A DNA stretch of 64,000 nucleotides, taken from the NCBI RefSeq assembly GCF_004421185.1, contig NZ_LXQB01000021.1:467-64466 (forward strand), given 5' to 3'. The notes under the pieces were generated by a model. The model was not told the DNA's origin. It made no database searches and saw only the letters and a program-made list of their open reading frames with translations. Below, piece after piece: positions 4,579-49,371 of the stretch. The stretch's first letter is position 1. Each line of letters starts with the position of its first letter. Made by a program: the position numbers and the translations under genes. This DNA is from Methylacidiphilum sp. Yel (lineage in GTDB: Bacteria; Verrucomicrobiota; Verrucomicrobiia; Methylacidiphilales; Methylacidiphilaceae).

Positions 4579-4596
4579 AGGCCCCTCTCCTTATCT

Positions 4597-5151
4597 CTAG
4601 CAATGCTCTCTCCAGCGGACTGACAAAGAATTTTCTATACCAAGATGATCCAATACCCTGGCGTTGACCGAATCAACAAGCTCCTCGATGGTGGAGGGAA
4701 GACCATAAAAAGAGGGGCAGGCTGGTAAGATTAAGGCGCCGGCTTCAGTTAAAGCGGCCAAATTGCGAAGATGGATCAAATGGAGGGGGGTTTCTCGAAT
4801 AACCAAGATGAGCTTTCTTCTTTCTTTTAAGAACACGTCTGCACTGCGAGTGATTGTTGAATTAGAAATTCCTTGAGCAATACGACCAACCGTACCCATT
4901 GAGCAGGGAATAATAACCATAGCATCGAATCTGGATGAACCACTGACAAAGGGTGCATCCATTGTGTTATCACTGTATAAGCCAAATTTTTTAGGAATTT
5001 CAAGATTTCTGCCTAATTCCAGACCGATCACCTGTTTGCCACGATTGCTTATGATAACATGGATTTCATGTTCGGTCGATGATAGGAAATGGAGTAATCG
5101 TTGGGCATATATAGCCCCACTAGCCCCTGTGATTCCAATAACAATTCTCAT
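4597..5151 (-). CDS. ubiX: UbiX-family flavin prenyltransferase
   Basis: Makes prenylated FMN, the cofactor of UbiD-type decarboxylases, by joining dimethylallyl phosphate to FMN. The 184-residue protein opens with the flavoprotein motif VIGITGASGAIYAQRLL and holds the family segments VIIPCSMGTVGRIAQG, LILVIRETPLHLIHL and a Pro-rich ILPACPSFYG near residue 140. Length fits UbiX/Pad1. It leads the mqnP-mqnE transcript, so it probably serves a UbiD-like decarboxylase of menaquinone synthesis (called MqnM/MqnL in some bacteria); no such decarboxylase is in the window. The start ATG follows an AT-rich gap after the decayed tnpB fragment. Confidence 0.88.
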   Translation of the reverse strand: MRIVIGITGASGAIYAQRLLHFLSSTEHEIHVIISNRGKQVIGLELGRNLEIPKKFGLYSDNTMDAPFVSGSSRFDAMVIIPCSMGTVGRIAQGISNSTITRSADVFLKERRKLILVIRETPLHLIHLRNLAALTEAGALILPACPSFYGLPSTIEELVDSVNARVLDHLGIENSLSVRWREHC

Positions 5152-5204
5152 CTAAATCCTTAAGTTTATCACACTGCAAATCAAAAATGGCTTTTATTTT
5201 TTAT

Positions 5205-5430
5205 TCAGCGTTCCATTTCGTTAGACTTACTCAATTCTACTAACACAGGTTCGAAGCTGACTTCCTGCTTCACCGAGGCTGTCGACAGTCCGGACATCGC
5301 CACTCGCAAACAGCCAGCGGCATTTTTTCCTGCACCGTCCAGCAAGTTGAACAGTTCTTGCTGGAGGGAAACCAGCGGTCGGCCACCACAACCATCCCCT
5401 CCCTCACGCCACTTTGCCTTCTATTCCAGT
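5205..5430 (-). pseudogene. tnpB: Decayed C-terminal fragment of a TnpB-family gene
   Basis: The minus strand encodes VVVADRWFPSSKNCSTC and CEWRCPDC, the zinc-ribbon region of TnpB. The frame then breaks at CPDCRQPR-stop. Two bases out of frame the coding continues as ASVKQEVSFEPVLVELSK and stops at 5205, which resembles the usual TnpB tail. The segment that should follow the last zinc-ribbon Cys, with the HDRDxNAAxN motif and the third RuvC Asp, is missing, so this is a dead fragment with an internal deletion. Nothing of the first 300 or so residues remains upstream. Confidence 0.75.
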
Positions 5431-5782
5431 TGCCGCCGAAACTCAAAGAAACTCTTTTCCTTCTACTCCCATATAAAAAACCACTGAAAAAAAAGTCCTT
5501 AGGCAATATCTCCCGTAGAAAAAAATTAGTGTATGGCTTTTTAAGGTCAAAGAAAAGAAATTTGTATCACATTTTCCTGTAATAACATAGTTGCATTTAT
5601 ACTACTTTAAATACTTAATAGTATGTCTAGTTTCATGAAAATAAAAACAAACAAAGTTGCAACCTTCTTTGGGTAAAAAGATTAGAAGAATTTTTTGATC
5701 AATCTTTTATGGTCAAAGAAGGGAGAGCATCAAAAAAAAAAATAGCTGAATTTGAAATTAACTTCTATTGTCTGAGGAGATA
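5431..5782. other. AT-rich intergenic stretch before the response regulator
   Basis: No convincing gene, RNA or repeat is seen. The stretch is AT-rich and holds several tracts of A, with a TTGCAT box at 5591-5596 that could be a -35 element, but no matching -10 box at a good distance. It should contain the promoter of the regulator gene. Confidence 0.4.
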
Positions 5783-33662: not shown

Positions 33663-34457
33663 TCAGTTAGTAGCCGCCACAGAAGGCCGAGCATGATTGC
33701 TAGATTCAGCATTCATTTCAGCCATCTGTTTGAGCCAATTATTGTACTCCTCCTGAGACTCAACCACAAGATAGCCTTTCATAGCAAAATGGCCGACTCC
33801 ACAAAGTTGACCACAGGCAATCTCAAATCTTCCCGTTTTGATAGGAGTAAACCACAGTGGTATAGTCAATCCTGGAATTGCATCCCTTTGTATCCGCATT
33901 TGAATAATATAGAAATTATGGACTACATCCTTGGAACCAATCTGAACCAGTAAAGGTTTTCCCACAGGTACATGCATCTCGTTCATCGTAACAATATCAT
34001 CTTTAGATGCCGGATCAGTTTTATCGAGACCTATGGGATTCATAGGATCAATGAGAAAATTATCCCGCCTCCCCAGCTTACCATCAGCTCCAGGATAATG
34101 GAAAAGCCATCCAAATTGTTGAGCAATAGCCTCCACTACAATCGCCTCAGAAACCGATGGGGGATTCAAAACCCGTTTGCCCCATAGTGGAATGGAAAAG
34201 CCGAAGAGTAAAACCATCTCAACAAAAATAACTCCCCATTCCAAATGCTTTGGCCAATCAGCTTTCAACCCTTCATAGCTAGCTTTAGGATGCCTTTTGC
34301 TGCTAAACTTCACCAAAGAATAAACAAAAAACGAAGACCAAATAACAAAAAGAATAAGCATAAACCATAAGATCAACTCCATGAATTGATCTACTTGGTG
34401 TCCATGTTCAGCAGCATTTGGGGAAATACCTGTAAGTTCCAACAAAAGTGCGATCAT
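33663..34457 (-). CDS. coxB: Cytochrome c oxidase subunit II
   Basis: Carries the CuA centre that takes electrons from cytochrome c. Two membrane segments (about 28-50 and 73-92) are followed by the cupredoxin domain. CuA ligands are visible: His180 in DVVHNFY, Cys215 and Cys219 in ACGQLCGVGHFAMKG, His223 and Met226. The residue between the cysteines is Gln rather than the usual Glu, whose backbone is the ligand. There is no fused cytochrome c domain; separate cytochromes are encoded upstream. Unusually, coxB comes at the end of the locus, well after coxA. Length 264. Confidence 0.95.
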   Translation of the reverse strand: MIALLLELTGISPNAAEHGHQVDQFMELILWFMLILFVIWSSFFVYSLVKFSSKRHPKASYEGLKADWPKHLEWGVIFVEMVLLFGFSIPLWGKRVLNPPSVSEAIVVEAIAQQFGWLFHYPGADGKLGRRDNFLIDPMNPIGLDKTDPASKDDIVTMNEMHVPVGKPLLVQIGSKDVVHNFYIIQMRIQRDAIPGLTIPLWFTPIKTGRFEIACGQLCGVGHFAMKGYLVVESQEEYNNWLKQMAEMNAESSNHARPSVAATN

Positions 34458-35359: not shown

Positions 35360-35656
35360 TTATTTTCCTATAGAATCAAAATAAGAAGCTACTAATAATA
35401 AAAATAAAGCCAAAACAAAAAGGATCGCAAGACCAATAAGATGATGGATAGTCTTTTTCTCCCAAAAAATATGCATCAGGATCCCTAAAGCCAACAATGC
35501 CTGTACACCAGCAATGACTAATCCTGCAGCAATATTCATTCCCCCTAAATGAAGATATGAAACGGCGACATTGACCAAAGCAAGTATTACCAAAAATCCA
35601 AAAACGATGAAATAAGACTTAATCCGCTTTTTTTCCGTCTGAATTTCTTCACTCAT
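35360..35656 (-). CDS. coxD: Cytochrome c oxidase subunit IV, bacterial type
   Basis: 98 residues with three hydrophobic segments, matching the COX4_pro group of small bacterial oxidase subunits (FGFLVILALVNVAVSYLHLG, then VQALLALGILMHIFWEKKTIHHL and a last helix). Holds no redox centre; helps stability of the oxidase. It follows coxC by about 36 bases, as in many aa3-type operons. Confidence 0.82.
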   Translation of the reverse strand: MSEEIQTEKKRIKSYFIVFGFLVILALVNVAVSYLHLGGMNIAAGLVIAGVQALLALGILMHIFWEKKTIHHLIGLAILFVLALFLLLVASYFDSIGK

Positions 35657-35692
35657 TGTAGCCTTCTCCTTTATATAAAGTAGTAATCCTCA

Positions 35693-36484
35693 TTAAAACA
35701 GGTAGAGTGTTGGGAAAAGAAAGATCCAAACTAGATCGACAAAATGCCAAAAAAGCCCTGCTACTTCGACCCTATTGGCTAAATGTTCTGGATTGGTTCT
35801 ATATAAGGCCGCTCCTGGTCCCCAAAAATAACCCAAGACTAATAATCCGCCTAAAATATGAAGCGCATGAATCCCAGTCATCGTAAAATAGGTGGCCAGG
35901 TAGGTATTATACTTTGGAACGAAATTAGACCACCAGCGAATTTCCTTTTTAGGGATTTCTAGGACTTTCTCTTCTCCCTCAGGCTTAGAAAAAATGGATT
36001 TTAATTGAAAAAGAAAATCTCCGGCATTTTCAGGATCAGGCTTAATTTTTAGGACATCAGAATGGATGGCTTCCTCTTCTGTCATCGCCAAATGGCCTGT
36101 AATTTCCTGTCCACTATTCAAGATTATCCCGTAATGATGGAACTTATCTTTATATTCCACAGATTTAACGCTGAGAAACAACACCCCACAAAAAAGAGTG
36201 ATCCCAAGCCATTTTCTATAATTAGAAAATTGCCGCATCTTTAAGGAACTCCACGCCATAACCATCGTGATACTCGAACTAATAAGCACCATGGTATTAA
36301 AGAGCCCCATGGGCACATTAAGGATATGATGCGGCCAATGGGTAGCACCTAGCCTTAGAAAAATATAGGCTGAAAAAAGGCCTCCAAAAAGCATGACCTC
36401 AGAAGCTAAAAACAACCAAATCCCGACCTTTGCATTATAAAGACCGGTATCCGGTCTGGCAGTCACTGTATAGGGGATCTCCAT
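35693..36484 (-). CDS. coxC: Cytochrome c oxidase subunit III
   Basis: Heme-free membrane subunit of the aa3-type oxidase, seven membrane segments. Typical motifs are LFLASEVMLFGGLFSAYI near residue 25, TMTGIHALHILGGL near 205 and WHFVDLVWIFLFPTLYLF at the end. Between helices 3 and 4 there is a hydrophilic insert of about 80 residues (from VEYKDKFHHYG to WWSNFVPKYN) with a Lys/Glu-rich stretch, more than most subunit III proteins have. It lies about 50 bases after coxA. Confidence 0.93.
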   Translation of the reverse strand: MEIPYTVTARPDTGLYNAKVGIWLFLASEVMLFGGLFSAYIFLRLGATHWPHHILNVPMGLFNTMVLISSSITMVMAWSSLKMRQFSNYRKWLGITLFCGVLFLSVKSVEYKDKFHHYGIILNSGQEITGHLAMTEEEAIHSDVLKIKPDPENAGDFLFQLKSIFSKPEGEEKVLEIPKKEIRWWSNFVPKYNTYLATYFTMTGIHALHILGGLLVLGYFWGPGAALYRTNPEHLANRVEVAGLFWHFVDLVWIFLFPTLYLF

Positions 36485-36533: not shown

Positions 36534-38381
36534 TCAAAAAGAAACCTGGGACAATTTTCCTTCTTTATTTAGTCTTTCATCCGATTCCCATTGCGGTAAA
36601 TAATCCTGTTTGTATCCCGGGACACTATACTCGTAAGGATCCCTATAAACCGCTACAGGATGCAGAAAATTTCCATGTCCTGGAGGGGTGGGAGTTGCCC
36701 ATTCAAGGGTTGTTGCTTGCCAGGGATTATCATCAGTTACCTTTTTACCTGCAAATAAACTCCAGAAGAAGTTAATAATAAAGGGAATTTGAGCAATCGC
36801 TAAAGCCCAGGCAGAAAAACTCATTACCTGATTCAACCACAAGACATTCTGAGCCATCTGCCAGCCCGCACCTCCATCGTACCATCTTCTATGAACGCCC
36901 GCAAACCCTTGCACGAGCATGGGGAAAAAGATGCCATTGAAAAATATAAAAGTGGGCCAAAAATGAATTTTACCAAGAAATTCATTCATGTATCTGCCCG
37001 TAGCCTTTGGGAACCAGTAGTAAATTCCTGCAAAGAGAGCAAGCAGGGAAGCAGGAGCCATCATGTAATGGAAATGTCCGATTACATAATAGGTGTCATG
37101 GAGTACCACATCGGAAGCTGTCCATCCCAGGGGCAAACCCGTTAATCCTCCTATGCCAAACATTGGTAGCCAGGCAAGGGCAAAAAGCATTGGGACATTA
37201 AAGCGGATAGAAGCTCCCCAGAGTGAAAGAAGCAAGACCGTTCCCAAAAGAACGGAAGGAATAGAGATGATTGTTGTAAAGATCTGGAAGAACGATGTTA
37301 CTGCCTGTCCCATGCCTGTCATATACATGTGATGGGCCCAAACAATCATCGATAAAAAGCCAATGGCCAAAAGCGAATAAACGAATACCTTATAACTCCA
37401 AAGCGGTTTTCTAGTATTATTCGCAAAGATCTCCCCCACAATTCCCATGGTAGGAAGAATCTGAACATAGACTTCAGGATGGCCCAAAAACCAGAAAAGA
37501 TGCTGCCACAGAATCGAGGAACCTCCCCCACTAATATCCGCATGCTTGCCATTAATAATTAAGCCTTCAGGAGAAAAGAAGCTTGTTCCAAAAAGCCTGT
37601 CCATCAGCTGCATGATCGCTGCTGATTCTAATGGTGGGAAAGCAAGGAGCAACAAAAAGGCTGTGACTAATTCACTCCACACAAAAACAGGCAGGCGCAT
37701 CCAGCTAAGCCCTTTTGTTCTTAACTGAATGATGGTGGTAATGATGTTCACTGAGCCCAGCAAACTTCCTGTGATATTAAAGGCCATACCGATAAGCCAA
37801 AGGGTTTGGCCATTAAAAATGGGATGAAAACCCGGCCCCATATCAGCAAAATCAGCCAGTGGCGTATACGAAGTCCATCCCGATTTCGCTGCTCCTCCAG
37901 GCACAAAAAAACTGACCATCATAATGAGCACTCCCACAAAAAACAACCAGAAACTGGCCATATTCAGCCGAGGGAAGGCCATATCAGGTGCTCCAATCTG
38001 TAAGGGAACCACAAAATTGCCAAACCCAGCAAAAAGCGCAGGCACCAACGCCATAAATATCATCATGGTGCCGTGCATCGCCCCAAATGAATTATACAAC
38101 TGCGGGGTCATCACTCCACCTGGAGCCATTGATGAGCCTAACAACTTTTCAAGAATAGGCCCAAAAATAGGAATCGGTTTTCCAGGAAAAGAAAGTTGCC
38201 AGCGCATCAACACCATCAAGAAAAAGGCAAAAAGGGCCACAAACAGCGAGGTCACCATGTATTGGTAACCGATCATTTTATGATCGGTAGAAAAAACGTA
38301 CTTTCTTATCCAAGAGATTTCTTCATGGCCTTCATGATGACCATGTGCTGCCTGAGAAGTCATAGACATTTCAGAATCCAT
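36534..38381 (-). CDS. coxA: Cytochrome c oxidase subunit I, K-channel Lys replaced
   Basis: Catalytic heme-copper subunit, 615 residues and 12 or more membrane helices. Ligands are all there: His103 (GAMHGTMM), His301-Tyr305 with Glu303 (GHPEVY), the CuB pair His350-His351 (WAHHMY), and His436/His438 (GHFHYMM). D-channel residues Asp133 and Asn140 in GAPDMAFPRLN are kept. The helix that in A1 oxidases reads VPTGIK, with the K-channel Lys, reads IPSVLL here, so Leu379 stands where Lys is expected. It is followed by coxC and coxD. A gap of about 130 bases separates it from the cytochrome c gene upstream. Confidence 0.96.
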   Translation of the reverse strand: MDSEMSMTSQAAHGHHEGHEEISWIRKYVFSTDHKMIGYQYMVTSLFVALFAFFLMVLMRWQLSFPGKPIPIFGPILEKLLGSSMAPGGVMTPQLYNSFGAMHGTMMIFMALVPALFAGFGNFVVPLQIGAPDMAFPRLNMASFWLFFVGVLIMMVSFFVPGGAAKSGWTSYTPLADFADMGPGFHPIFNGQTLWLIGMAFNITGSLLGSVNIITTIIQLRTKGLSWMRLPVFVWSELVTAFLLLLAFPPLESAAIMQLMDRLFGTSFFSPEGLIINGKHADISGGGSSILWQHLFWFLGHPEVYVQILPTMGIVGEIFANNTRKPLWSYKVFVYSLLAIGFLSMIVWAHHMYMTGMGQAVTSFFQIFTTIISIPSVLLGTVLLLSLWGASIRFNVPMLFALAWLPMFGIGGLTGLPLGWTASDVVLHDTYYVIGHFHYMMAPASLLALFAGIYYWFPKATGRYMNEFLGKIHFWPTFIFFNGIFFPMLVQGFAGVHRRWYDGGAGWQMAQNVLWLNQVMSFSAWALAIAQIPFIINFFWSLFAGKKVTDDNPWQATTLEWATPTPPGHGNFLHPVAVYRDPYEYSVPGYKQDYLPQWESDERLNKEGKLSQVSF

Positions 38382-38514: not shown

Positions 38515-39153
38515 CTATTCTCCAAGGGTGGATAACTCTGTTGTCTTCCACGCTCCCTCTTTTTTCCCATATTTTTCTCTAAACTGTTTGACTTCACTGG
38601 CCTCGACCTTATCGCCATGATTACCCCAAGAATTGCGAATAAAGGTCATAATGGCAGCAAGCTTTTCGTCGTTTAAGGCAGTTTTCCAGCCTGGCATTAC
38701 CCCATTGTAATTTTGTCCATTGATCTTAAGTTCTCCAGAAAGACCGTTTAACAATATGGCCGCCAATCTTGCCTTGCTCCCAATGACATACTCTGAATTT
38801 GCCAGTGGAGGATATTGCCCAGCCATACCCATACCACTGGGCTGATGGCAAGCTGCACACATGGCTTGGTATTGCTCCTGCCCAATGGCCATAGGATCAG
38901 CAGCAACAGCTTGTGGTTTTTGCAAAACCTTCTCTTTTGGTTTCTCTTTTGGCATATACCCCCAAAAGAGGCTAGTGGCGTCGAAGACCGACGATCGCCA
39001 TCCCCCTGTTTCAAATACCAAGATATACACTACCACCGACAAAATAATAAAGGATAGGAGCCAAAACCAACTAGGAATTTTTCTATTCGATTCTTCCCCT
39101 AGAGGGGGTTGCGGGATGCCTGTCGGTTGGGGATTCTTTTCGTTTTCTCTCAT
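38515..39153 (-). CDS. Membrane-anchored monoheme cytochrome c
   Basis: 212 residues: a cytoplasmic Pro-rich start, one membrane helix (WFWLLSFIILSVVVYILVF, about 29-47), a linker, and a class I cytochrome c domain with the heme motif CAACH at 99-103 and a Met ligand probably in GVMPGWK near 165. It overlaps the CcoO-like gene by four bases. By position it could be the electron donor to the oxidase CuA site, like the c domain fused to subunit II in caa3 oxidases, which is missing here. Confidence 0.85.
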   Translation of the reverse strand: MRENEKNPQPTGIPQPPLGEESNRKIPSWFWLLSFIILSVVVYILVFETGGWRSSVFDATSLFWGYMPKEKPKEKVLQKPQAVAADPMAIGQEQYQAMCAACHQPSGMGMAGQYPPLANSEYVIGSKARLAAILLNGLSGELKINGQNYNGVMPGWKTALNDEKLAAIMTFIRNSWGNHGDKVEASEVKQFREKYGKKEGAWKTTELSTLGE

Positions 39154-39746
39154 TGCTTTTTGGGTTGGGTAGGATAAGATCTATCAAGAGAAAGCAGATA
39201 TGCTACCAGAGCTACAGCTTCCGGTGAGGGCATGATTTGCATCCCATTAGGAAGGGTTCTATCCAGTTCTGGGGGTAGAGCTTGGGGATTCCTTTTTCCT
39301 TCCGCTCTGACTTTCCGAAAAAGATATTTGTAAGGGGGCATAATCGTTCCAGGAAATATTTGATTGGGTTCATATAAAAGAATATAAAACCAGCTTGAAT
39401 CTTTTTTCCTCTTCCCAATATTAGAAAGATCAGGTCCTATTCTCACAATCCCTAGAAACGGATTGGTCTCATGATAATAATCCACTGGCAAAGTTCTTCG
39501 GTTTCCCCATCCTCTGGCAATGTCCGAACCCATATTGGCTGGCCTGACTAGTTGCGTATGACATCCTGAACAGCCATTAGCTCCATATACTTGTTGTCCA
39601 ACTTCAACAAGCCCAAAATTAGGCGGGGGGGTTTCCTCTCCTTCAGGCGAAGGATCTAAAACCTGCGAAGGGATAATGACATAGACAAACCATCCAAATA
39701 GAAAACAGAGAAAGATGCCTAAAACCCAAACAATTCGTGCTATCAT
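39150..39746 (-). CDS. CcoO/FixO-like monoheme cytochrome c
   Basis: 198 residues with an N-terminal membrane helix and a single heme motif CSGCH at 59-63. The surroundings are those of the cbb3 oxidase subunit II: GQQVYGANGCSGCHTQLVRP, then ARGWGNRRTLPVDYYHE, IGPDLSNIGKR and PGTIMPPYKYL. It follows the CcoN-like gene by about 26 bases, mirroring the ccoN-ccoO order, but no ccoP-like diheme gene is present and the partner subunit I looks inactive. Confidence 0.85.
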   Translation of the reverse strand: MIARIVWVLGIFLCFLFGWFVYVIIPSQVLDPSPEGEETPPPNFGLVEVGQQVYGANGCSGCHTQLVRPANMGSDIARGWGNRRTLPVDYYHETNPFLGIVRIGPDLSNIGKRKKDSSWFYILLYEPNQIFPGTIMPPYKYLFRKVRAEGKRNPQALPPELDRTLPNGMQIMPSPEAVALVAYLLSLDRSYPTQPKKQ

Positions 39747-39772: not shown

Positions 39773-41218
39773 TTAGATAGATCGCGATAAATTTTTTTCA
39801 TTCTTTTCGATTCCCTCCTTCTCTACTGGCATTAGGAACATGAGTAGCAAAAGAAAACAATAGGTAAGCTGGGAGAAGAGTATCAGAGTAGCAGACATGC
39901 CAGCTCCTCTTAGATAAGGCAACACAGATTCTACTACTTGAGAGAAAGGAAGTTCAGCATTTTCTAATTCCACGCTCTGGACGATCCCTCCTAGAAACAA
40001 AAATACAAAAAGAAAGCTTATCCCATACATATTTGTCCAAAATGTGATCTTTAAAAAGGTCTCCGATAGCCACGGTTTTCTAAAAAAATTTGAATAGAGA
40101 TAATGGGCCATCCCCATGAGAACAAAAGAATAAAAGCCATAGATAAAAAGGACAAGAAAGGCAATTTCTACAAAACTAAAATGAACGAGCCGGCTAACGA
40201 ATGGCATAGCAATGCATCCATCCCCGACAATCGCAATCAAAAAACAGTAGAAGGCAATCAAAAAATATCTTGAGAAAATGTTCTGCTTATTGGCCTGTAT
40301 TCTTTTTTTAAGCCTTTGCAATAGATCGATTCCAATGGCAACGGCTCCTAAGATGAGCAAGATTCGAGCTGCAATACCTAGACCTACGATCCAAAGGGGG
40401 AAAGGAGCCCCAATCAGGTGAGAAGCACTGGCAAAATTAGAACATAGAAAAAATAGGATTAAGCCCAACCAGCCAAGAAAACTCGAAGATCGTTGACCGT
40501 TCCTCCCTTCCACATAATCATAGAGCATAGACAAACCAACAGGAGCCAACCAAAGATGCAAAAACCCTTCATTAAACCACCATTCCATGCTTGCAAAAGA
40601 AACACCTCGAATAACTAACCAGTGGAAAAAGATAAAAAGACTGCCAATCGCCCATGGGAACCATAGTAAAGCTATTAGAAGATAGCTATGGGAAAGGCTT
40701 CTCAAAAAACTTCCACTAACAAGCAACTTCTTTACAATCCAATAATTCATCAAGGAATAGTTCAAAAGAAGCAGAAATAAGACAAAATCAGGCCAGCCCG
40801 CCCATGATAGAGAAGGAATCTCCCCAATGAGAACGGCCATCATCCCAATAAAAATGGATAGATTCCAAAAAAGAGCGGAGCAAAGAAAATAGCCGCTGCC
40901 CCTAAATGGTTCCTGAGCATTCTTTCCTATAAGATAGAGTGCATAGGCTAGCCCACCGTTCATTCCCCATCCGTAAGAAAATACAAGAAAAGAAGCCAAT
41001 CCGATCCTACCAAAGGTCAACCATCCCCACGATCCAAGCAGGCTTGGAATCACTATTTTACCAGCACCCAAAAGAGCAAATCCCATAGATACCAAAAGCC
41101 AAAAAAAGGCAGCAACAAGCATAAATATCACAGGAATGAAAAAGGATCTGTCAAGAGAGACTGGTCTAGAAACTCCACTCCCAATCCACTCCTGAGATTC
41201 TACCATTGGATTGCTCAT
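39773..41218 (-). CDS. CcoN-like heme-copper oxidase subunit I homolog without most ligands
   Basis: 481 residues with about 12 membrane helices. GWLTFGRIGLASFLVF (65-80) lines up with the CcoN segment in which LTFGR is followed by RPLHTNAVIF, but the heme-b His is absent. EWWFNEGFLHLW (212-223) corresponds to the CuB-ligand helix (WYGHN in CcoN), with the His replaced. ASASHLIGAPFPLW (263-276) corresponds to GPHHL, one His left. The C-terminal HxH helix also lacks its pair. I conclude it is a structural relative unlikely to bind the binuclear centre. It is followed by the CcoO-like gene. Confidence 0.65.
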   Translation of the reverse strand: MSNPMVESQEWIGSGVSRPVSLDRSFFIPVIFMLVAAFFWLLVSMGFALLGAGKIVIPSLLGSWGWLTFGRIGLASFLVFSYGWGMNGGLAYALYLIGKNAQEPFRGSGYFLCSALFWNLSIFIGMMAVLIGEIPSLSWAGWPDFVLFLLLLNYSLMNYWIVKKLLVSGSFLRSLSHSYLLIALLWFPWAIGSLFIFFHWLVIRGVSFASMEWWFNEGFLHLWLAPVGLSMLYDYVEGRNGQRSSSFLGWLGLILFFLCSNFASASHLIGAPFPLWIVGLGIAARILLILGAVAIGIDLLQRLKKRIQANKQNIFSRYFLIAFYCFLIAIVGDGCIAMPFVSRLVHFSFVEIAFLVLFIYGFYSFVLMGMAHYLYSNFFRKPWLSETFLKITFWTNMYGISFLFVFLFLGGIVQSVELENAELPFSQVVESVLPYLRGAGMSATLILFSQLTYCFLLLLMFLMPVEKEGIEKNEKNLSRSI

Positions 41219-41231
41219 CGGTTGCTTTCTC

Positions 41232-41606
41232 CTATTTTTCAGGCCTTTGTATACCAGGTAAATACACTCCTGAAGCCTTTGGTTTTTTCGATGCCTCCTC
41301 TTTCACTACATTTTCCATTGCTTCCTCGATTGGGATATGAACAATCCGCTTTTCTTTGTCAATCCATCCATAAGATGAAAGCCTTTTCTTTGCCTCTAGC
41401 TGATCGGCAAGCCGCATTTTTCTTATTTCTTCGGCTCTCTTTTTTTCTGCCAAAGCTTGCTTATTCTGCATGGAAGAAGCATAGAGGAAGGAGAATAAAA
41501 GCCCTAAAAGGAAAAGCATGCTGATTCCAACGAGCACGAGCAGATCCTCGAAAATGAGAGGCTTTTTTAGCTTTTGGTTTTGATCCATCTGCTGGGTATT
41601 CATCAT
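41232..41606 (-). CDS. Small membrane protein between actF and the CcoN-like gene
   Basis: 124 residues: one membrane helix (LLVLVGISMLFLLGLLFSFLY, about 22-42), a charged likely coiled-coil stretch rich in Lys, Glu and Arg, then SYGWIDKEKRIVHIPIEEAM and a Pro/Lys-rich end. A similar GWxDKxxxxxxIPIxxAM motif occurs in small proteins near complex III/oxidase or SCO genes in other bacteria (from memory). It may be an assembly or linker subunit. Confidence 0.65.
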   Translation of the reverse strand: MMNTQQMDQNQKLKKPLIFEDLLVLVGISMLFLLGLLFSFLYASSMQNKQALAEKKRAEEIRKMRLADQLEAKKRLSSYGWIDKEKRIVHIPIEEAMENVVKEEASKKPKASGVYLPGIQRPEK

Positions 41607-41623: not shown

Positions 41624-42826
41624 TCAGTTATATACTTCTATCGATTCCTGCAGCCTTGGATCATGGATTGGATATAAACAAACTCTGCTAGCATTTCTCA
41701 GATAACCAGATAAAAACACCAATCCCATCCCCACCACGATCGATATTTCTATCCAGCCAACTTCCAGATTTCTCTCAAACTCCATGGGCATAACAATCCA
41801 ATACAATTCCACAGCCTGCATAAACAACACCCAACTAGCAACCATTGCTAAAAATCGTTCGTTTTTCTTTGTAGCTTGAGGAAGAAGAAATAGGAAAGGC
41901 AACGCGAATCGACCAACCACTAACAACAAAGAAACGTAAAACCATCCATCATAGTTTCTTTTTATAAAAAAATCTGTCTCCTCAGGAATATTCCCATACC
42001 AAATCAACATGTACTGACTGAATGCCAGATAGGCCCACAGGGCTGTAAAAGCAAAGAGCAATTTACCAAGAAGATGATAATGCTCAGCGTTCATTTGGAG
42101 GAGATAACCAAACTTTCGAAGACCAAGAAGAATAAGAATCCAAAGACTTAAACTGGCTCCCGCTGCGCCTGTAAAAAGATAAAAGGCCCAAACGGTGGAA
42201 CTCCACCTAAACTCAAGAGACATTGCCCAATCGATAGCAAAAAAAGTGAACAGAAAGCCAAAGAGGATAGCAAGGGGATAAGCGATGCGTTTAAGTTTGA
42301 GTGAATGCAATGGGTTGCCATCGCCGTCTTGGATACAGGACTGCTTGCGAAAATACCAGCTCACGATACTAAAAAAACAAAAATAAAGCACCGCTCGGAG
42401 GCTAAAAAATGGGACATTAAGATAGGAAGCTTTTTCCAAATACTCTTTGAGTTTTTGGATTTCTGGTCTTGTCCATTCGTAAAGATAATGGGTGGAAAAA
42501 ATGTCGAAGAAGATCGGTAGAGCGAACAGAACAACTAATGGGAATAGTGCAGCTACATTTTCCACCTGTCTTCGTAAAAGAGTGTCCCAGCCAGCATTCG
42601 TGACATAATGGAGGATAACCCAAAACAGAGAGCCGGTACATAGACCAAAATAAAACAAAAAAGAAAAAAGCCAGGCATGGAAAAATTCAGATTTGTTGAC
42701 CAACAGCCCCAATAACGAAATCAACAGCACAATGCTGCCAGCTATTCCTAAGAGTCGAATAACACCTTTGAGTTTTTCTTTAGGGAGCATAGTCCGTTGA
42801 TGAATAAAGTAGCTGGCATCATTCAT
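41624..42826 (-). CDS. actF: Alternative complex III subunit ActF
   Basis: 400-residue integral membrane protein with ten hydrophobic helices, the second NrfD-type membrane subunit of alternative complex III (quinol:cytochrome c/oxidase oxidoreductase). Segments like HAWLFSFLFYFGLCTGSLFW near residue 52 and AFSQYMLIWYGNIPEE near 265 are characteristic. It overlaps the actE stop by four bases. Its job is quinol handling and/or proton movement without a cofactor of its own. Confidence 0.88.
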   Translation of the reverse strand: MNDASYFIHQRTMLPKEKLKGVIRLLGIAGSIVLLISLLGLLVNKSEFFHAWLFSFLFYFGLCTGSLFWVILHYVTNAGWDTLLRRQVENVAALFPLVVLFALPIFFDIFSTHYLYEWTRPEIQKLKEYLEKASYLNVPFFSLRAVLYFCFFSIVSWYFRKQSCIQDGDGNPLHSLKLKRIAYPLAILFGFLFTFFAIDWAMSLEFRWSSTVWAFYLFTGAAGASLSLWILILLGLRKFGYLLQMNAEHYHLLGKLLFAFTALWAYLAFSQYMLIWYGNIPEETDFFIKRNYDGWFYVSLLLVVGRFALPFLFLLPQATKKNERFLAMVASWVLFMQAVELYWIVMPMEFERNLEVGWIEISIVVGMGLVFLSGYLRNASRVCLYPIHDPRLQESIEVYN

Positions 42827-43440
42827 TGCTGGATCTCCTTGAGAATTTGTTTTTTTTCCTCAGGCAATGCTTCAAAAGGAACGTTTTGGCTTTTTTGCAA
42901 AGCCCTAATGTAGGCAACAATAGCCCATCTTTCTTCCACAGACAGATTGGCCCCATAGCCTAGCATCATTCCCTGACCATGTGAAAGAATATAAAAGATC
43001 TGGCCATCTGGTAGCTCCCTTGTATGATCCTGATGATAGTTCGGAACTCCAAAAAGATTAAACCGCGTTGCTATTCCGTTACCATAGCCAGCCAATCCAT
43101 GGCAAGCCGAGCAGTAAATTTCAAAGTTCTCTTTTCCTTTTTTAAGCGTATCGATCGATAAAGCAATGGGGAATCCTTCTCCCCACTGTTCTCCAATAAT
43201 GCCTGTAGAAAGATAAGGGTTATCCACCGGCTCCTCCCAACATACTGTTCCACTGACTGGCATTCGGGCTGCCATACCATCTGGAAAAAAGATGCTATAG
43301 GCCTGTTCTTTGACTTTCAACTGCCTGACCATGTCAGGAAAAATCTCCAATGGAGGCTTTGGACTTTTCCATCCTCGTAGTCCCGCTGTGGCTATCACTG
43401 TAATCACTAAAAGAAAACAAATATAAAAGAAATACCGCAT
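42823..43440 (-). CDS. actE: Alternative complex III cytochrome c subunit ActE
   Basis: 205 residues, with an N-terminal hydrophobic anchor or signal (YFFYICFLLVITVIATAG) and one heme motif CSACH at 110-114 (NFEIYCSACHGLAGYG). A Met ligand is probably in GQGMMLGYG near 170. ActE passes electrons on from the complex. It sits between actD and actF, overlapping actF by four bases. Confidence 0.9.
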   Translation of the reverse strand: MRYFFYICFLLVITVIATAGLRGWKSPKPPLEIFPDMVRQLKVKEQAYSIFFPDGMAARMPVSGTVCWEEPVDNPYLSTGIIGEQWGEGFPIALSIDTLKKGKENFEIYCSACHGLAGYGNGIATRFNLFGVPNYHQDHTRELPDGQIFYILSHGQGMMLGYGANLSVEERWAIVAYIRALQKSQNVPFEALPEEKKQILKEIQQ

Positions 43441-43444
43441 TGGT

Positions 43445-44041
43445 TTATCTCCGAATGCTCACAACAGCTTGGGCTCCTAATTGTTTTAAAATAAGTTTTG
43501 TTTTATCTTCTGAAAAATGTGGATCAGCATTTTCCACTACCAAAAAAAAGCGATCATCCATCGCTTTTTGCGACAACCGTTCCCAATTCCAGACCGATTT
43601 ATAAGGAGAAGGCATACGGTTAAAAAAGAGCACACCGATAACCGTGCTGAAAGAAGCAAAAAGAATTGTCATTTCAATCAGAACGGGAACAAAAGCTTGA
43701 AATCCCAGATACGGTTTACCTTGGACTACCAAAGGATAAAAAAGGCCTTGGAGATGACTACTCAACACCTCCTTAAAGAATGAGGGTCGAGGAGCAGAAA
43801 TAGCCGTTACCATCACTAGGGCAATAGTCAAGCCAATCAAGCCTCCCACCAAACTAAAAAGAGAGACTTTCGATTTACCAAGTCTCCTGACATGGGCTAT
43901 TCCATGAATCGGGAATGGAGAATAAACTTCCCATTGCGTATAACCCAATTTAGAAAGCTCCATGGCCGCTGCCATTAGTTTATGGATGGAATCAAATTCA
44001 GCTCCTAATCCATAAATATCCTCAGTTCTCTCAGGCTCCAT
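43445..44041 (-). CDS. actD: Alternative complex III subunit ActD (DUF3341)
   Basis: 198 residues with two membrane helices (about 63-85 and 112-140) and the DUF3341 N-terminal domain: IYGLGAEFDSIHKLMAAA, then YTQWEVYSPFPIHG. No redox cofactor. It overlaps the end of actC by 11 bases, so translation is coupled. Confidence 0.92.
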   Translation of the reverse strand: MEPERTEDIYGLGAEFDSIHKLMAAAMELSKLGYTQWEVYSPFPIHGIAHVRRLGKSKVSLFSLVGGLIGLTIALVMVTAISAPRPSFFKEVLSSHLQGLFYPLVVQGKPYLGFQAFVPVLIEMTILFASFSTVIGVLFFNRMPSPYKSVWNWERLSQKAMDDRFFLVVENADPHFSEDKTKLILKQLGAQAVVSIRR

Positions 44042-45473
44042 AAAGGGTTCCTTTCTTCAAATCATATTCTTTCCGTTCCATTTCATAGACTAAAGTTTTT
44101 ACTTCCGAGATCGATATCACTGGGAAAAACCGCGTAAAAAGAAGGAATAGCATAAAGAAAAATCCCACAGTTCCTACGAACAATCCAATATCCACCCAAG
44201 TCGGATAATACATTCTCCAGGATCCAGGCAGAAAATCTCTCGAGAGGGCAGTAACCACGATGACAAAGCGCTCAGACCACATACCCACGTTGATTAGAAT
44301 CGAAATGCAAAAGACCGCCCACGGACTAGACCTTATTTTTCTCCACCAAAAGAGTTGAGGCAAGAAGACATTAAAACCGAACATTAAAAAATAGGCAATG
44401 GCATAGGGACCAAAAATACGATTCAAAAAGAGATACTTTTCGTAAACATTGGCACTATACCAGGCTACAAACAGCTCAATGATATAGGAATAGCCTACCA
44501 TGGAACCCGTGGCAAGCATGATTCTAGCCATATTATCTATATGCTTTGGAGTGATCACATCTTTGAGCTGCGGGTAGAGTGTTCGCAAAGGAATCAATAA
44601 AGTGGCAATCATTGCAAAACCACTGAAAATCGCACCGGTAATAAAATCAGGAGGGAAAATCGTTTCATGCCATCCTGGTAACACCGTTGTCGCAAAATCA
44701 GTAGAGACAACGGAAGCGACCGAAACGACTAAAATCGTGGCAATGCCGCCTAAACAAAGATAACCAAGTTCATAGTGATGCCATTCAGTAGCCGAACCGC
44801 TCCATCCCCAACAAAGAATATGATAAAGCCGTTTTTTCCAGCCTTTCTCAGCTCTATCTCTTAAAACAGCAATATCCGGGATCAATCCGAAATACCAGAA
44901 CAAACAGGAAACCGTAAAATAGGTGCCCACAGCAAATTCATCCCAGAGTAAGGCCGCCCTGAAATTTTGCCATACTGCATACGACTCTGGAACAGGAACC
45001 AAATACCAAAACATCCACTGCCTCCCAATATGAAACAGAGGGAAGACTGCTGCACAGAGAACAGAAAAAATCGTCATAGCCTCAGCCGCTCTGTTCACCG
45101 AGTTTCTCCACTTTTGTCTAGTAAGAAGAAGGATGGCTGAAATCAGAGTGCCCGCATGGCCAATCTCTATCCAAAAAACAAAATTAAGAATCGCTAGCCC
45201 CCAGAATACAGGACTATTCAGTCCCCATACTCCAAGCCCTGTACTGATAAAATAAACAATTGTTAGTGGCAGCAGCAGCGAGAGAAGAAAAGAAAGTAGA
45301 AAAGCAATCCACCATTCTAATTTCGCTGGCTTTTCGACAATAGAGCAGATCGCTTCGGTTAACCAGCCGTAGTTCCTCTTGTTCAGCACAAGAGGAGGCC
45401 TCTCTAATTGCTTGAGCAACAACGCTTTTTTTTCTTCAGAAAGGTTCTTCTCTAGCCCAAATTTGCCTATCAT
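44031..45473 (-). CDS. actC: Alternative complex III subunit ActC (NrfD-like)
   Basis: 480-residue polytopic membrane protein with about ten helices, the main quinol-site subunit of the NrfD/PsrC group. Recognisable segments are FWIEIGHAGTLISAILLLTRQKW cut at INFVFWIEIGHAGTLI near residue 100, FSVLCAAVFPLFHIGRQW, and WSERFVIVVTALSRDFLPG near 405. Lies six bases after actB. Confidence 0.93.
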   Translation of the reverse strand: MIGKFGLEKNLSEEKKALLLKQLERPPLVLNKRNYGWLTEAICSIVEKPAKLEWWIAFLLSFLLSLLLPLTIVYFISTGLGVWGLNSPVFWGLAILNFVFWIEIGHAGTLISAILLLTRQKWRNSVNRAAEAMTIFSVLCAAVFPLFHIGRQWMFWYLVPVPESYAVWQNFRAALLWDEFAVGTYFTVSCLFWYFGLIPDIAVLRDRAEKGWKKRLYHILCWGWSGSATEWHHYELGYLCLGGIATILVVSVASVVSTDFATTVLPGWHETIFPPDFITGAIFSGFAMIATLLIPLRTLYPQLKDVITPKHIDNMARIMLATGSMVGYSYIIELFVAWYSANVYEKYLFLNRIFGPYAIAYFLMFGFNVFLPQLFWWRKIRSSPWAVFCISILINVGMWSERFVIVVTALSRDFLPGSWRMYYPTWVDIGLFVGTVGFFFMLFLLFTRFFPVISISEVKTLVYEMERKEYDLKKGTLYGA

Positions 45474-45479
45474 AGCTCT

Positions 45480-48400
45480 CTAGTTCTCTTTTTTACCTTC
45501 GGATTGGGTGTGAGGCGCAATCGAAGGATTTGGATTATTGATCCTTGCCAAATAAGTGATCCTAGGTCTTGTATTCAGCTCTTGCAAAATCCGATAAGCT
45601 CGCTCATTCTTTTTCCATTTAGTGACCGTGCTCTGTTGATCCATCAGATTCCCAAATATGATAGCTCCAGCTGGGCAAGCCTGCTGACAAGCCGTTTTCA
45701 CAGAATCAGTAGGGATAGTTTTAGGCTCTGTACCTTTGGACTTTGCCAGAACCGTTATTTTTGCTTCTTCAATCCGTTGAACACAAAAAGTGCACTTCTC
45801 CATGACTCCCCGCATCCTAACGGTAACATTAGGATTTCTCTGAAGCTGAATAGTCAAAGGAGAACCTAGATCACCGAAAGGACCCAAATACAAATTTTCT
45901 ATTTCAAAGGGCCCAATCTTCTTTTTCTTCAGCACATCTCTTTTATTGTAATCAAAAAAATTAAATCGTCTGACCTTATAAGGACAGTTAGCTGCACAGG
46001 CTCTTGTGCCAATACAACGGTTATAAACCATCACATTCAACCCATCTTTACTATGGACTGTTGCATAGACTGGGCAGACCGACTCGCAGGGAGCATTTTC
46101 ACATTGCTGGCAAAGCATGGGTTCGAAAAACATCTGCAGATTTTCATCGCTCCCCTGATAATAATTATCTATCCTCATCCACTGCATAATCCGACCGCGC
46201 ATAACCTGCCCCTTGCCTACAATCGGAATATTGTTTTCACTCTGACAGGCCACAACGCAGGCGTTGCATCCCACGCAGCTTCCCAAGTCAATAACCATAC
46301 CCCATTGATAGGGCCCTCCCCAAACCCCTCCCCTATAAGCAGGACCTTTTTCTTTCTGGCCAGAATAAGGATTTTCATAAATGGAGACTTCTGGGATCTC
46401 TTCCGTCCCCTGCTCTGAAATAAAATCGGGATGCTTTCGGAAATACTCAAGCGAAGCTATCTTGACTAGCGGTCTTCCATGCATCAATTGATGTTCTTGA
46501 GATTTCGCCAAGTCATAAAACCGATTTGTTTTTTGGATCGTACAGTCACCAATCCACCAAAACTGTTCGGTTTTGGTAAGTGGATAAGCATTAAAGCCCA
46601 CCCCTGCGGCCACTCTTAATTCTTTCTTCCGACCATACCCTAGGGCTAAAGATAAGGAATTGTCAGCATGACCAGGAACGACTAAGGTAGCCACCTCAAT
46701 CCATTTTTCCCCAGAAACAATGCGCACGATTTCCGCCTTTCTTGAATCCGCTTTTCGGGCAAAAATGCCATAACGCTTAGCCGTATTAGGACTCATTAGC
46801 AAAGCGTTATCCCAGCAGAGCTTGGTCACGGTCTCAGGTAATTCTTGCAGCCATCCATTATTGGCTAAACTGCCTTCGTCCACTTTAGGGCAAGGATAGA
46901 AAACAAGTTCCAACTGCTCTTTATTGACTCTTTGAACTTTAAGATTTTCGACACTCTTGCTCCATTCTTCCCACTTTGGAACAGCATTTACAGATTGAGG
47001 TAAGGACTCTTTGTAAAATCCATCGTGCAATAGTTTTCTCCAAATAAGATCCTTATCAGCGTCTGCGGCAGGGAAAAGTTTAAAAAAAGTATCTCGGACT
47101 AGACGCAATCCAAGAGGCAGAGGAATAAAGGGAGGAGCTCCTGCCACTGGCGGTTGAGCCAACAGGGAGGGAGGAGTTGGTTCAGCCTCTTCCAAAGCCT
47201 CCCACCTCCCGTTCATAAAAGCAAAAAGTTCCAATAAACCGATAGATCCAAAAAGTGGTTCGATCAGAGGTTGTTGAGTAACGTAGAGCCCGCTGGAGGT
47301 TTTCGAATCTCCCCAGCATTCTAGGTAATGACTTAGAGGAATATGCCAAGTAGCATAGGCAGCTGTCTCATCGTTTAATAGCCCAAAATGAACAACAGAA
47401 GGAAGGCTGCGCTGTAGTTCAGGCCAATGGCTATCCCCTGGAGCATTATAAACTGGGTTAGCCCCAATGATAAGAAGCTCTTTGATTTCTTCTTTTTTAA
47501 TCATTTCACAGAGTTCTAGGAAGCTAGCGCCTTCTGATTCTAGCTGGGGGATCAATCTCACTGCCTTTCTTTCTCCAAAGGCTTCGTTGATGGCAAAAAC
47601 TAATAGTTGTTGCGATACTGGGGCCATCCGGCTTATCACTACCAGGGGTGCGTTTGCATCGGCCAAATCCTTAGCCAATACTTTTATCCAATTTATCAGC
47701 TCCGCACTCCAATCTGCGGGAATGCTAAAGGAAGTAATGGCGGGCTTTAAATTTTCAAAGCCTTTTTCTTGGGTCAAGAAGTAACACAAGGTTAACAAAA
47801 AAAGCTCAAAATCGGAGACTTTTAGAGCCAGCCGATGATCGGCCATTGCCCCAGTCACCGTCATCCTATTTTCGACGACATAAAGTCTATTCATCGAACT
47901 GGAGCTATCTTTTAGTTTTCTTGATTTCACAAATCCACGGATGGCCTCTACCCCCTCTTCAGCTGAACAGAAATCGCATCCTACAGAAAGAATGACATCG
48001 GCCTTCTCCCACTGGAAAACAGGGCTATAGGAAACTCCATAAAATCGCTTTATAGCCTCTTTTCTGTTCTCATTACCCACTGGATCATAAAAGGCGAAAG
48101 TCGCATGAGGACATTTTTCCAAAAATTCGGTTTTTAGCCGATCAAACGTAGGAGAAATTACAGGAAAAGAAAGTATAGCTACCCCTGCCCCTTTTCTATC
48201 ATTCCACTGTTGCAGTTGAGATTTAAAAAAATCGATAAACTCTTTTTTGGATACCACCTCTCCGTTTCGGGTAATGCGCCCATCCCTATCCGGATCATAG
48301 AGATCTAGGATCGAAGCTTGCGTTTGCGTAGAGACTCCGTACTCAGAAAAGTAAGGGTTAGGATGGATATGGGTAGGCCTTCCCTCGTGAGATTCTACAA

Positions 48401-48590
48401 GGATTGGCTCGGCACCGTTTCGAGTCGGTCTGGAAGTAGCATAAAACAAGGCTTTTCCTGGTATAATCCATTCAGGACTATTGGTATAGGGCACAAGAAA
48501 AGCCTCTGGACGTCGGCATCCTGTCGCTGCTATTGATCCAGTCGCCATAGCCGCCGCCGAGATAGTCTTCAAAAAAGTCCTGCGGTTCAT
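45480..48590 (-). CDS. actB: Alternative complex III iron-sulfur subunit ActB
   Basis: Large periplasmic subunit of about 1036 residues. MNRRTFLKTISAAAMATG is a twin-arginine signal, followed by ATGCRR, a possible lipid-anchor Cys. The first two-thirds resemble a molybdopterin oxidoreductase that has lost its cofactor; the last third has ferredoxin-type clusters: CVGCNACVVACQ, CQQCENAPCESVCP, CIGTRACAANCP and CTFCVQRI with CQQACPAGAI. I start at ATG 48590, which is preceded by a purine-rich AAGGGAAG and begins right at the Tat motif; the frame is open nine codons further. Such a protein needs the Tat system; tatA is nearby at 52176. Confidence 0.93.
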   Translation of the reverse strand: MNRRTFLKTISAAAMATGSIAATGCRRPEAFLVPYTNSPEWIIPGKALFYATSRPTRNGAEPILVESHEGRPTHIHPNPYFSEYGVSTQTQASILDLYDPDRDGRITRNGEVVSKKEFIDFFKSQLQQWNDRKGAGVAILSFPVISPTFDRLKTEFLEKCPHATFAFYDPVGNENRKEAIKRFYGVSYSPVFQWEKADVILSVGCDFCSAEEGVEAIRGFVKSRKLKDSSSSMNRLYVVENRMTVTGAMADHRLALKVSDFELFLLTLCYFLTQEKGFENLKPAITSFSIPADWSAELINWIKVLAKDLADANAPLVVISRMAPVSQQLLVFAINEAFGERKAVRLIPQLESEGASFLELCEMIKKEEIKELLIIGANPVYNAPGDSHWPELQRSLPSVVHFGLLNDETAAYATWHIPLSHYLECWGDSKTSSGLYVTQQPLIEPLFGSIGLLELFAFMNGRWEALEEAEPTPPSLLAQPPVAGAPPFIPLPLGLRLVRDTFFKLFPAADADKDLIWRKLLHDGFYKESLPQSVNAVPKWEEWSKSVENLKVQRVNKEQLELVFYPCPKVDEGSLANNGWLQELPETVTKLCWDNALLMSPNTAKRYGIFARKADSRKAEIVRIVSGEKWIEVATLVVPGHADNSLSLALGYGRKKELRVAAGVGFNAYPLTKTEQFWWIGDCTIQKTNRFYDLAKSQEHQLMHGRPLVKIASLEYFRKHPDFISEQGTEEIPEVSIYENPYSGQKEKGPAYRGGVWGGPYQWGMVIDLGSCVGCNACVVACQSENNIPIVGKGQVMRGRIMQWMRIDNYYQGSDENLQMFFEPMLCQQCENAPCESVCPVYATVHSKDGLNVMVYNRCIGTRACAANCPYKVRRFNFFDYNKRDVLKKKKIGPFEIENLYLGPFGDLGSPLTIQLQRNPNVTVRMRGVMEKCTFCVQRIEEAKITVLAKSKGTEPKTIPTDSVKTACQQACPAGAIIFGNLMDQQSTVTKWKKNERAYRILQELNTRPRITYLARINNPNPSIAPHTQSEGKKEN

Positions 48591-48694
48591 CTTCCCTTCT
48601 TCTTTCATCGCATCCATAATTATAAAACCTCTAATCCTCTTTTCCTTTTAAGAGCTGTTTTTATCTGAAGACCGTAATACTATAATCCATGTAA

Positions 48695-49351
48695 TTACCT
48701 ATGACAGGCATCACAATTTTCTGGTGGATGTATTCCCATTTCTTTTACTAGTTTTTTGCCAAGGAGCCGCTGGGTTTCTCCTTCATTCTCTGGCTTCCAA
48801 TCCAAATCAAATACTTTATCCGGTGGCCTCACAAAGTATTCAGGATTTCTATGGCAATCCAAACACCAACTCATGCTTAAAGGCTGGTCGTGATAGACCT
48901 TCTGCATCTGATTGACCTTACCATGACAGCTCACACAACTTATTCCTCGGTTGACATGAGCGGAGTGATCAAAATAAACATAATCGGGCAGTTGGTGTAT
49001 CCTTACCCACTTTATAGGCTTTCCTGTTTCCCAACTTTCTCGGAGTGGTGCCAATTTAGGGCTGTCCATTTTAATTTGCCTATGACAGTTCATACAAGTT
49101 TGTGTAGTCGGAATATTAGAAAAGCCACTTTTTTCAACATAACTGTGACAAAAACGGCAATCTAAACCAAGCTGATCGGCATGGAGAGAATGATCGAATG
49201 GTATGGGCTGTGTTGGCATGTAGCCAACCCTCGAGTATTTAGGCGTAAAATAATAGCTGATGCCCATCACAAATAAAAAACCCAGCACTACAATCCCTAA
49301 AAGTATTTTAGGAGGCAAATCGTTAGACTGCCGGTTAAATATATTACCCAT
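48695..49351 (-). CDS. actA: Alternative complex III pentaheme cytochrome c subunit ActA
   Basis: First gene of the respiratory locus. 218 residues from ATG 49351: an N-terminal membrane anchor (ILLGIVVLGFLFVMGISYYF, about 16-35) and five CxxCH heme motifs with Cys at 65, 86, 139, 163 and 213. ActA collects electrons from ActB. A TTG three codons upstream is a possible alternative start. It is preceded by a good promoter-like sequence and, further up, two tRNA genes. Confidence 0.94.
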   Translation of the reverse strand: MGNIFNRQSNDLPPKILLGIVVLGFLFVMGISYYFTPKYSRVGYMPTQPIPFDHSLHADQLGLDCRFCHSYVEKSGFSNIPTTQTCMNCHRQIKMDSPKLAPLRESWETGKPIKWVRIHQLPDYVYFDHSAHVNRGISCVSCHGKVNQMQKVYHDQPLSMSWCLDCHRNPEYFVRPPDKVFDLDWKPENEGETQRLLGKKLVKEMGIHPPENCDACHR

Positions 49352-49371
49352 TGATAACAATAATTGATCAA

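Follow-up and report, generated by a model that had tools for sequence, protein, structure and literature searches.

The stretch of DNA analyzed here, referred to below as the window, comprises 64,000 nucleotides of the 2.25 Mb genome of Methylacidiphilum sp. Yel. It carries an operon in which the genes of alternative complex III (ACIII), ActA-B-C-D-E-F, are followed by orf124, a CcoN-like gene, the genes of CcoO and of a membrane cytochrome c, CtaD, CtaE, CtaF, two small open reading frames, and CtaC (Table 1). The product of the CcoN-like gene is designated psi-CcoN here. Since orf124 ends only 13 bases from this gene, there is no space between them for the CcoS-like gene that is found in the operons of ligand-complete relatives. 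The preliminary description of this DNA concerned the loss of ligands in psi-CcoN; the membership of its gene in an ACIII-aa3 operon and the recurrence of the loss go beyond that observation.

Table 1. Genes of the ACIII-aa3 operon and ligand sites of psi-CcoN, with positions in the window
Feature	Position	Strand	Support
psi-CcoN, CcoN-like subunit I of the heme-copper oxidase family, cofactor ligands lost	39773..41218	-	481 aa; COX1 50.2 bits; SESSHFV; TM 0.81-0.85; dN/dS 0.09-0.16
S76, site of low-spin heme b His	40991..40993	-	alignment with P. stutzeri CcoN and ligand-complete relatives
E217, site of CuB His 1; Glu or Asp across the psi-CcoN family	40568..40570	-	alignment
S266 and H267, site of the CuB His-His pair; H267 is the sole remainder	40418..40423	-	alignment, His conservation
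F354 and V356, site of the HxH binding hemes b3 and b	40151..40159	-	alignment
CcoO-like mono-heme cytochrome c (FixO family)	39150..39746	-	PF02433 71.8 bits; CxxCH and Met136 kept; equivalents of Thr100/Thr103 lost
Mono-heme cytochrome c with a membrane anchor, at the position of CcoP	38515..39153	-	CxxCH in 118/118 relatives, Met153 in 99-100%
orf124, small one-helix protein; in most relatives flanked by ActF and the CcoN-like gene	41232..41606	-	ORF list, synteny
ActF of alternative complex III	41624..42826	-	location, conserved synteny; itself unmatched in Pfam and NCBIfam
ActE, mono-heme cytochrome c	42823..43440	-	domain search, synteny
ActD	43445..44041	-	synteny
ActC, NrfD-like quinol subunit	44031..45473	-	53-57% identity across Verrucomicrobiae
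ActB, molybdopterin-type/FeS fusion	45480..48617	-
ActA, penta-heme cytochrome c	48695..49360	-	five CxxCH, no sixth
CtaD, intact A-type oxidase subunit I	36534..38381	-	COX1 431.6 bits
CtaE (35693-36484) and CtaF (35360-35656)	35360..36484	-
CtaC, CuA subunit II	33663..34457	-	PF00116 44 bits; no CxxCH, that is, no fused cytochrome c domain

Ligand sites, fold, and selection

Over its full length, psi-CcoN matched the Pfam COX1 family with a score of 50.2 bits at a cut-off of 34.8. The CcoN profiles recognized it weakly (ccoN, 23.4 bits, E 2.5e-5), and its sequence matches in the PDB were CcoN chains only, namely 9g6b_A (E 7.7e-5) and, weakly, 3mk7_A (E 0.44). An AlphaFold2 model based on a 41-sequence alignment (pLDDT 88.7, pTM 0.89) had CcoN chains as all its seven top PDB matches, with TM values of 0.81-0.85; this alignment includes ligand-complete relatives, so that homology enters into the fold result.

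The seven active-site residues read HHYHHHH in P. stutzeri CcoN and SESSHFV in the aligned psi-CcoN, with one of them kept. The preliminary description had reported that the heme histidine is missing from the helix equivalent to LTFGR..PLHTNAV, that the helix of the CuB histidine reads WWFNEG, that the HH pair is down to one histidine, and that the C-terminal HxH is gone. The alignment bore out all four readings: one histidine of heme b is replaced by S76 (GRIGLAS), the first CuB histidine by E217 (WWFNEG), the second CuB histidine by S266 next to the retained third one, H267, the heme b3 histidine by F354, and the second heme b histidine by V356. Moreover, S260 stands in the place of the active-site tyrosine of helix VII. 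Of the six histidine ligands of heme b, heme b3, and CuB expected in a C-type oxidase, one is present. Clearly, the gene at 39773-41218 on the reverse strand encodes a descendant of CcoN without the ligands of heme b and of the heme b3-CuB center.

Two hemes and CuB require six histidines. psi-CcoN contains six histidines in total, and three of these, H199, H267, and H346, do not vary within the family, which is not enough for all three centers. This argues against hidden histidines elsewhere in the protein forming normal sites, which the preliminary description had named, along with the lack of a CcoN fold, as an observation that would speak against its reading; the TM values of 0.81-0.85 dispose of the latter. 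In NO reductases of the NorB type, FeB is bound by three histidines and a glutamate, and the heme by three histidines. From a site of this kind psi-CcoN has only E217 and H267, and the heme histidines are absent. Judged by the missing ligands of heme b and of the heme b3-CuB center, psi-CcoN is neither an O2 nor an NO reductase; both activities are excluded on established chemistry.

Inside the ACIII-aa3 operon, psi-CcoN is selectively maintained. Its dN/dS was 0.15-0.16 in comparison with the two closest relatives (dS 0.2) and 0.09 in comparison with more distant ones, for which dS is saturated, and this range is similar to those of CcoO and the downstream cytochrome c. Homologues were present in 48 of 60 relatives. 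Among these relatives were all eleven further genomes in g1 and g3, groups taken here to be Methylacidiphilum and Methylacidimicrobium, and all the copies reaching the ligand positions in these genomes are ligand-less.

Distribution, loss of ligands, and co-changing genes

A profile built from degenerate forms was run on 388 genomes of the phylum, the families of which are coded f1-f28. CcoN proteins of the ACIII type scored 260-600 bits with this profile, ordinary CcoNO fusions scored below about 195 bits, and unfused CcoN genes with no adjoining ACIII operon scored about 170-220 bits. ACIII-type CcoN and ActC were found together in 91 genomes, ActC alone in 2, and the CcoN-like gene alone in 2, as counted in the window's own family, order, and class and with the distant ActC-like matches of genus g17 (below 460 bits) left out. 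The order ActA-F, orf124, CcoN, CcoO, cytochrome c was nearly constant, independent of whether the ligands were present or absent. As would be expected of a subunit of an ACIII(-aa3) complex, psi-CcoN is encoded in the ACIII operon and co-occurs with it. Genome contigs were searched for further ACIII loci with ActC as the anchor. In the sampled ACIII loci of Planctomycetota and Acidobacteriota, the CcoN-CcoO-cytochrome c block was absent, and CtaC-D-E-F came directly after ActF or orf124.

Some loci had peculiarities of their own. In a genome of the same family, G005 (L232, 12693-15597), the interval from orf124 to CtaE lacks the CcoN-like gene, CcoO, the cytochrome c gene, and CtaD altogether. 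This joint absence is consistent with a natural deletion of one module and, as G005 has ACIII, indicates that the module is not essential for ACIII itself. An insert of about 7 kb between ActF and orf124 in L036 (G001, about 11.2-18.1 kb) is probably the nos (N2O reductase) cluster that, in M. caldifontis IT6, was reported to lie among the genes of ACIII (PMC11102522). The genome of the window has a second ActC/NrfD-like gene (L233, G000:C23, 9001-11172; 724 aa, 686 bits), with no other Act genes recognized nearby. G014 has another, divergent CcoN-like gene without ligands (L054, 9135-11260), which is accompanied by a CcoO of its own, lies outside ACIII, and adjoins an ordinary CcoNO gene. The degenerate ACIII-linked CcoN of Chthoniobacter flavus Ellin428 (L183, 14595-16092) is in two frames in the deposited draft, which is due either to a sequencing error or to a true frameshift.

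Losses of ligands were counted on a tree of the partner genes ActB, ActC, ActF, and ActE, with the CcoN gene itself not used, because the tree of the CcoN-like proteins joins degenerate lineages by long branches. The partner-gene tree contained 113 operons, 30 ligand-complete and 83 degenerate. The number of Dollo losses, with ligands never regained, was 16; it was 14 after the collapsing of branches with support below 0.99, and 10 when only branches with support of 1.0 were kept. Within the window's own order, IQ-TREE analysis gave three losses and rejected a single degenerate clade (p-AU 1.1e-44 in the AU test), and with it the descent of all degenerate copies from one ancestral loss. Taken together, these counts indicate that the ligands were lost at least 10 times independently, and probably 16 times. 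The count could be inflated if ligand-complete genes moved between lineages; however, a transfer of the whole operon moves the partner genes too, so that the partner tree should absorb most of such transfer.

Degenerate copies display dozens of ligand patterns, e.g., AHAHDNF, SSGSLTT, HSAQKFI, FEAADVQ, and QQGRHQQ. In family f13 (L147, L148, L151, L154, L157, L163, L126, L135), the pattern is HNSQRYH: the histidine pair of the low-spin heme b is kept, and the ligands of heme b3 and CuB are lost, as would be predicted for a single-heme intermediate. The partly degenerate CcoN of L046 (G044, 3955-5454; YHVYYHH) comes from a genus in which every other member sampled is ligand-complete, and it possibly represents a recent, ongoing loss.

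CcoS is required for the insertion of cofactors into CcoN. Directly upstream of ccoN, all 32 ligand-complete ACIII operons had a short one-helix gene matching FixS/CcoS, as detected with a profile made from these genes; five other ligand-complete loci, which lack a CcoS-like gene, are not ACIII-linked. Among 90 degenerate operons, one had a match, and it was a remnant without the membrane helix. The CcoS-like profile found no such gene upstream of psi-CcoN, and FixS had no match in the six Methylacidiphilaceae genomes searched, that of the window included. Thus, the repeated demotion of CcoN in Verrucomicrobiae was accompanied by the loss of the CcoS-like gene.

The partner CcoO had been described as intact. 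This is true of its CxxCH motif and axial methionine; the threonine pair of the GTxRTGPDL motif, which ligand-complete relatives keep, is lost. T100 was present in 36/36 CcoO sequences of ligand-complete operons versus 6/92 of degenerate ones, and T103 in 35/36 versus 4/92, with a majority loss of the pair in 16 of 16 loss clades. These threonines may serve the contact of CcoO with the hemes of CcoN. CxxCH was retained in all the degenerate lineages' cytochromes (92/92 for CcoO and 87/87 for the downstream cytochrome c). The nearest PDB chains of the window's CcoO are CcoO chains, and psi-CcoN thus has a mono-heme CcoO next to it; the downstream cytochrome, with one CxxCH, is not a di-heme CcoP. 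In about 40% of the sequences from degenerate lineages, CcoO lost its axial methionine (Cys in 21, His in 6; f11, f4, L194, L197, L209, L218). The change to cysteine or histidine suggests altered heme coordination, and the heme of CcoO is therefore probably not an ordinary electron carrier everywhere.

The CcoN fold, the absence of the ligands, purifying selection, and the repeated independent loss together with that of the CcoS-like gene provide good support for the proposal, made in the preliminary description, that a heme-copper fold has been kept here without its metals.

Candidate roles of psi-CcoN and their meaning

The cbb3 oxidase of P. stutzeri (3MK7) shares with the psi-CcoN module the CcoN fold and the succession of a mono-heme CcoO homologue and a membrane cytochrome c. 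psi-CcoN differs from it in the loss of six of the seven active-site residues, the lack of a CcoS-like gene and of a di-heme CcoP, and the location in an ACIII operon. Nearest to the ancestor are the ligand-complete ACIII-linked C-type oxidases of Verrucomicrobiae (e.g., in f2, f5, f6, f10, f12, f17, and f19), of the same operon and protein family, which, unlike psi-CcoN, keep HHYHHHH, the CcoS-like gene, and the threonine pair of CcoO. In G060 and G198, which are 98-99% complete, such a CcoN was the only heme-copper subunit I found, which suggests that it is active and that the ligand-complete relatives are probably real oxidases. The checked genomes with a degenerate copy had at least one further COX1 match in all cases except G046, a draft.

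Rhodothermus marinus and Flavobacterium johnsoniae form ACIII-(c)aa3 supercomplexes, in which ACIII is linked to the oxidase through a cytochrome c domain; this domain is carried by subunit IIc in Rhodothermus, and is an extra heme domain of ActA in Flavobacterium (PMC5928083, PMC8552683). The window's operon similarly encodes ACIII together with an A-type oxidase. In contrast, no CcoN-like or CcoO subunit was described in these supercomplexes. A membrane subunit that retains a fold without the binding site of its homologue has a precedent in ActF, the cofactor-free partner of ActC (PMC5928083), although the fold of ActF is NrfD/PsrC-like and not derived from an oxidase.

We consider it fairly likely that psi-CcoN is a cofactor-free scaffold subunit, which would hold c-type cytochromes between ACIII and the aa3 oxidase; both this role and the electron wire described below are what we infer from the conserved features. 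The ancestor would have been an ACIII-linked C-type oxidase (CcoN-CcoO-cytochrome c) docked to ACIII. In lineages with another oxidase it may have become catalytically redundant and lost its cofactors, and its helical body would have been retained as an anchor of CcoO and the downstream mono-heme cytochrome c between ACIII and the acceptor. Electrons would then pass from menaquinol through ActC/ActB and the hemes of ActA/ActE to the downstream cytochrome c, possibly also to CcoO, and on to CuA of the adjacent aa3 oxidase. Such a bridge would fill a gap: CtaC has no cytochrome domain and ActA only five hemes, which makes the extra cytochromes of the operon the obvious candidates.

Residues T225, S249, T327, S330, and T351, conserved in ligand-complete forms, fall to 11-18% in degenerate ones, in which the positions conserved in at least 85% of sequences are mainly glycine, proline, and aromatic. 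The loss of the polar core, with the fold, gene order, cytochromes, and selection all kept, fits a structural body. Thus, of the new jobs suggested for this fold in the preliminary description, a scaffold fits best, because the conserved features are structural and the adjoining cytochromes are retained, and a proton or sodium path is unsupported as a general function. In several degenerate operons (e.g., in f12), the examined stretch contains no CtaD, so that bridging to a neighboring aa3 oxidase cannot account for the role entirely. Together with the CcoO copies lacking the axial methionine, this argues that the role is not identical everywhere.

It is unlikely that the emptied fold conducts protons or sodium ions, e.g., by coupling the redox chemistry of ACIII to ion movement. 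The same drop of the polar helix residues to 11-18% speaks against it; moreover, no acid in the core is common to the degenerate lineages, and the replacements differ among the loss lineages, leaving no shared ion site. A lineage-specific form of this function would be in better accord with the conserved intramembrane acids E212, E217/D, and E351 of Methylacidiphilaceae, which, with R285 and beside H267, replace other residues of ligand-complete relatives. ActF, for which half-channels were proposed (PMC5928083), is a precedent of such a cofactor-free subunit. A role of psi-CcoN as a factor for the assembly or stability of the adjacent aa3 oxidase, or for the maturation of CcoO and the cytochrome c, rather than as a permanent subunit, seems similarly improbable. 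Although the gene shares an operon with CtaD-E-F-C in several families and is missing along with CtaD in G005, its presence follows the ACIII genes, and many operons whose examined stretch contains no CtaD have nonetheless kept a degenerate form.

Quite improbable, too, is a redox or sensor protein that binds a cofactor in a new way, as a metal at E217/D and H267 or as a single low-spin heme. Methylacidiphilaceae do retain these two residues at former CuB ligand positions, and in f13 the ligands that remain are precisely the histidine pair of the low-spin heme b; however, the window's family has neither histidine of this pair, only three of its histidines are invariant, and there is no CcoS-like insertion gene. 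That the gene is a pseudogene left to decay after the loss of a cbb3 oxidase, as the lost catalytic residues and the split frame in C. flavus Ellin428 might suggest, is highly improbable, being contradicted by frames that are open over about 480 aa in nearly all copies, a dN/dS of 0.15, the conserved fold and gene order, and the near-perfect co-occurrence with ACIII across a class.

Beyond the window, the scaffold reading would mean, and we think it reasonably probable, that the core of a heme-copper oxidase was repeatedly turned into a structural subunit which carries no cofactor and belongs to an assembly of quinol oxidoreductase and oxidase. The route would be repeatable and have a fixed signature: the CcoS-like gene and the threonine pair of CcoO lost, the ligands scrambled, and the cytochromes kept. 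It would represent a new ACIII architecture in a whole bacterial class. In the open-access literature searched, no previous account of a CcoN without ligands was found.

Genome papers and reviews of verrucomicrobial methanotrophs have listed their ACIII-linked operon as that of a cbb3-type oxidase (PMC6688271, PMC8498564, PMC10205796, PMC11102522), and one paper ties it to the high oxygen affinity of these organisms. The genome of the window encodes five COX1 proteins, two of the A-type, one of the B-type, one cNOR, and psi-CcoN, and the COX1 proteins of close relatives fall in the same classes by score. The COX1 search found no CcoN other than psi-CcoN in this genome. As far as its sequence tells, it encodes no functional cbb3 oxidase, and the published claim of such an oxidase in these methanotrophs looks wrong. 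With no other CcoN in the genome, the cbb3 annotation should be withdrawn, and the high oxygen affinity should be explained otherwise.

The presence of a CcoN gene serves as a marker of high-affinity respiration. Most sampled ACIII-linked copies of CcoN in Verrucomicrobiae are without the active site. The 10-16 independent losses, together with the surviving ligand-complete sister lineages, constitute a natural experiment on the non-catalytic role of the oxidase core.
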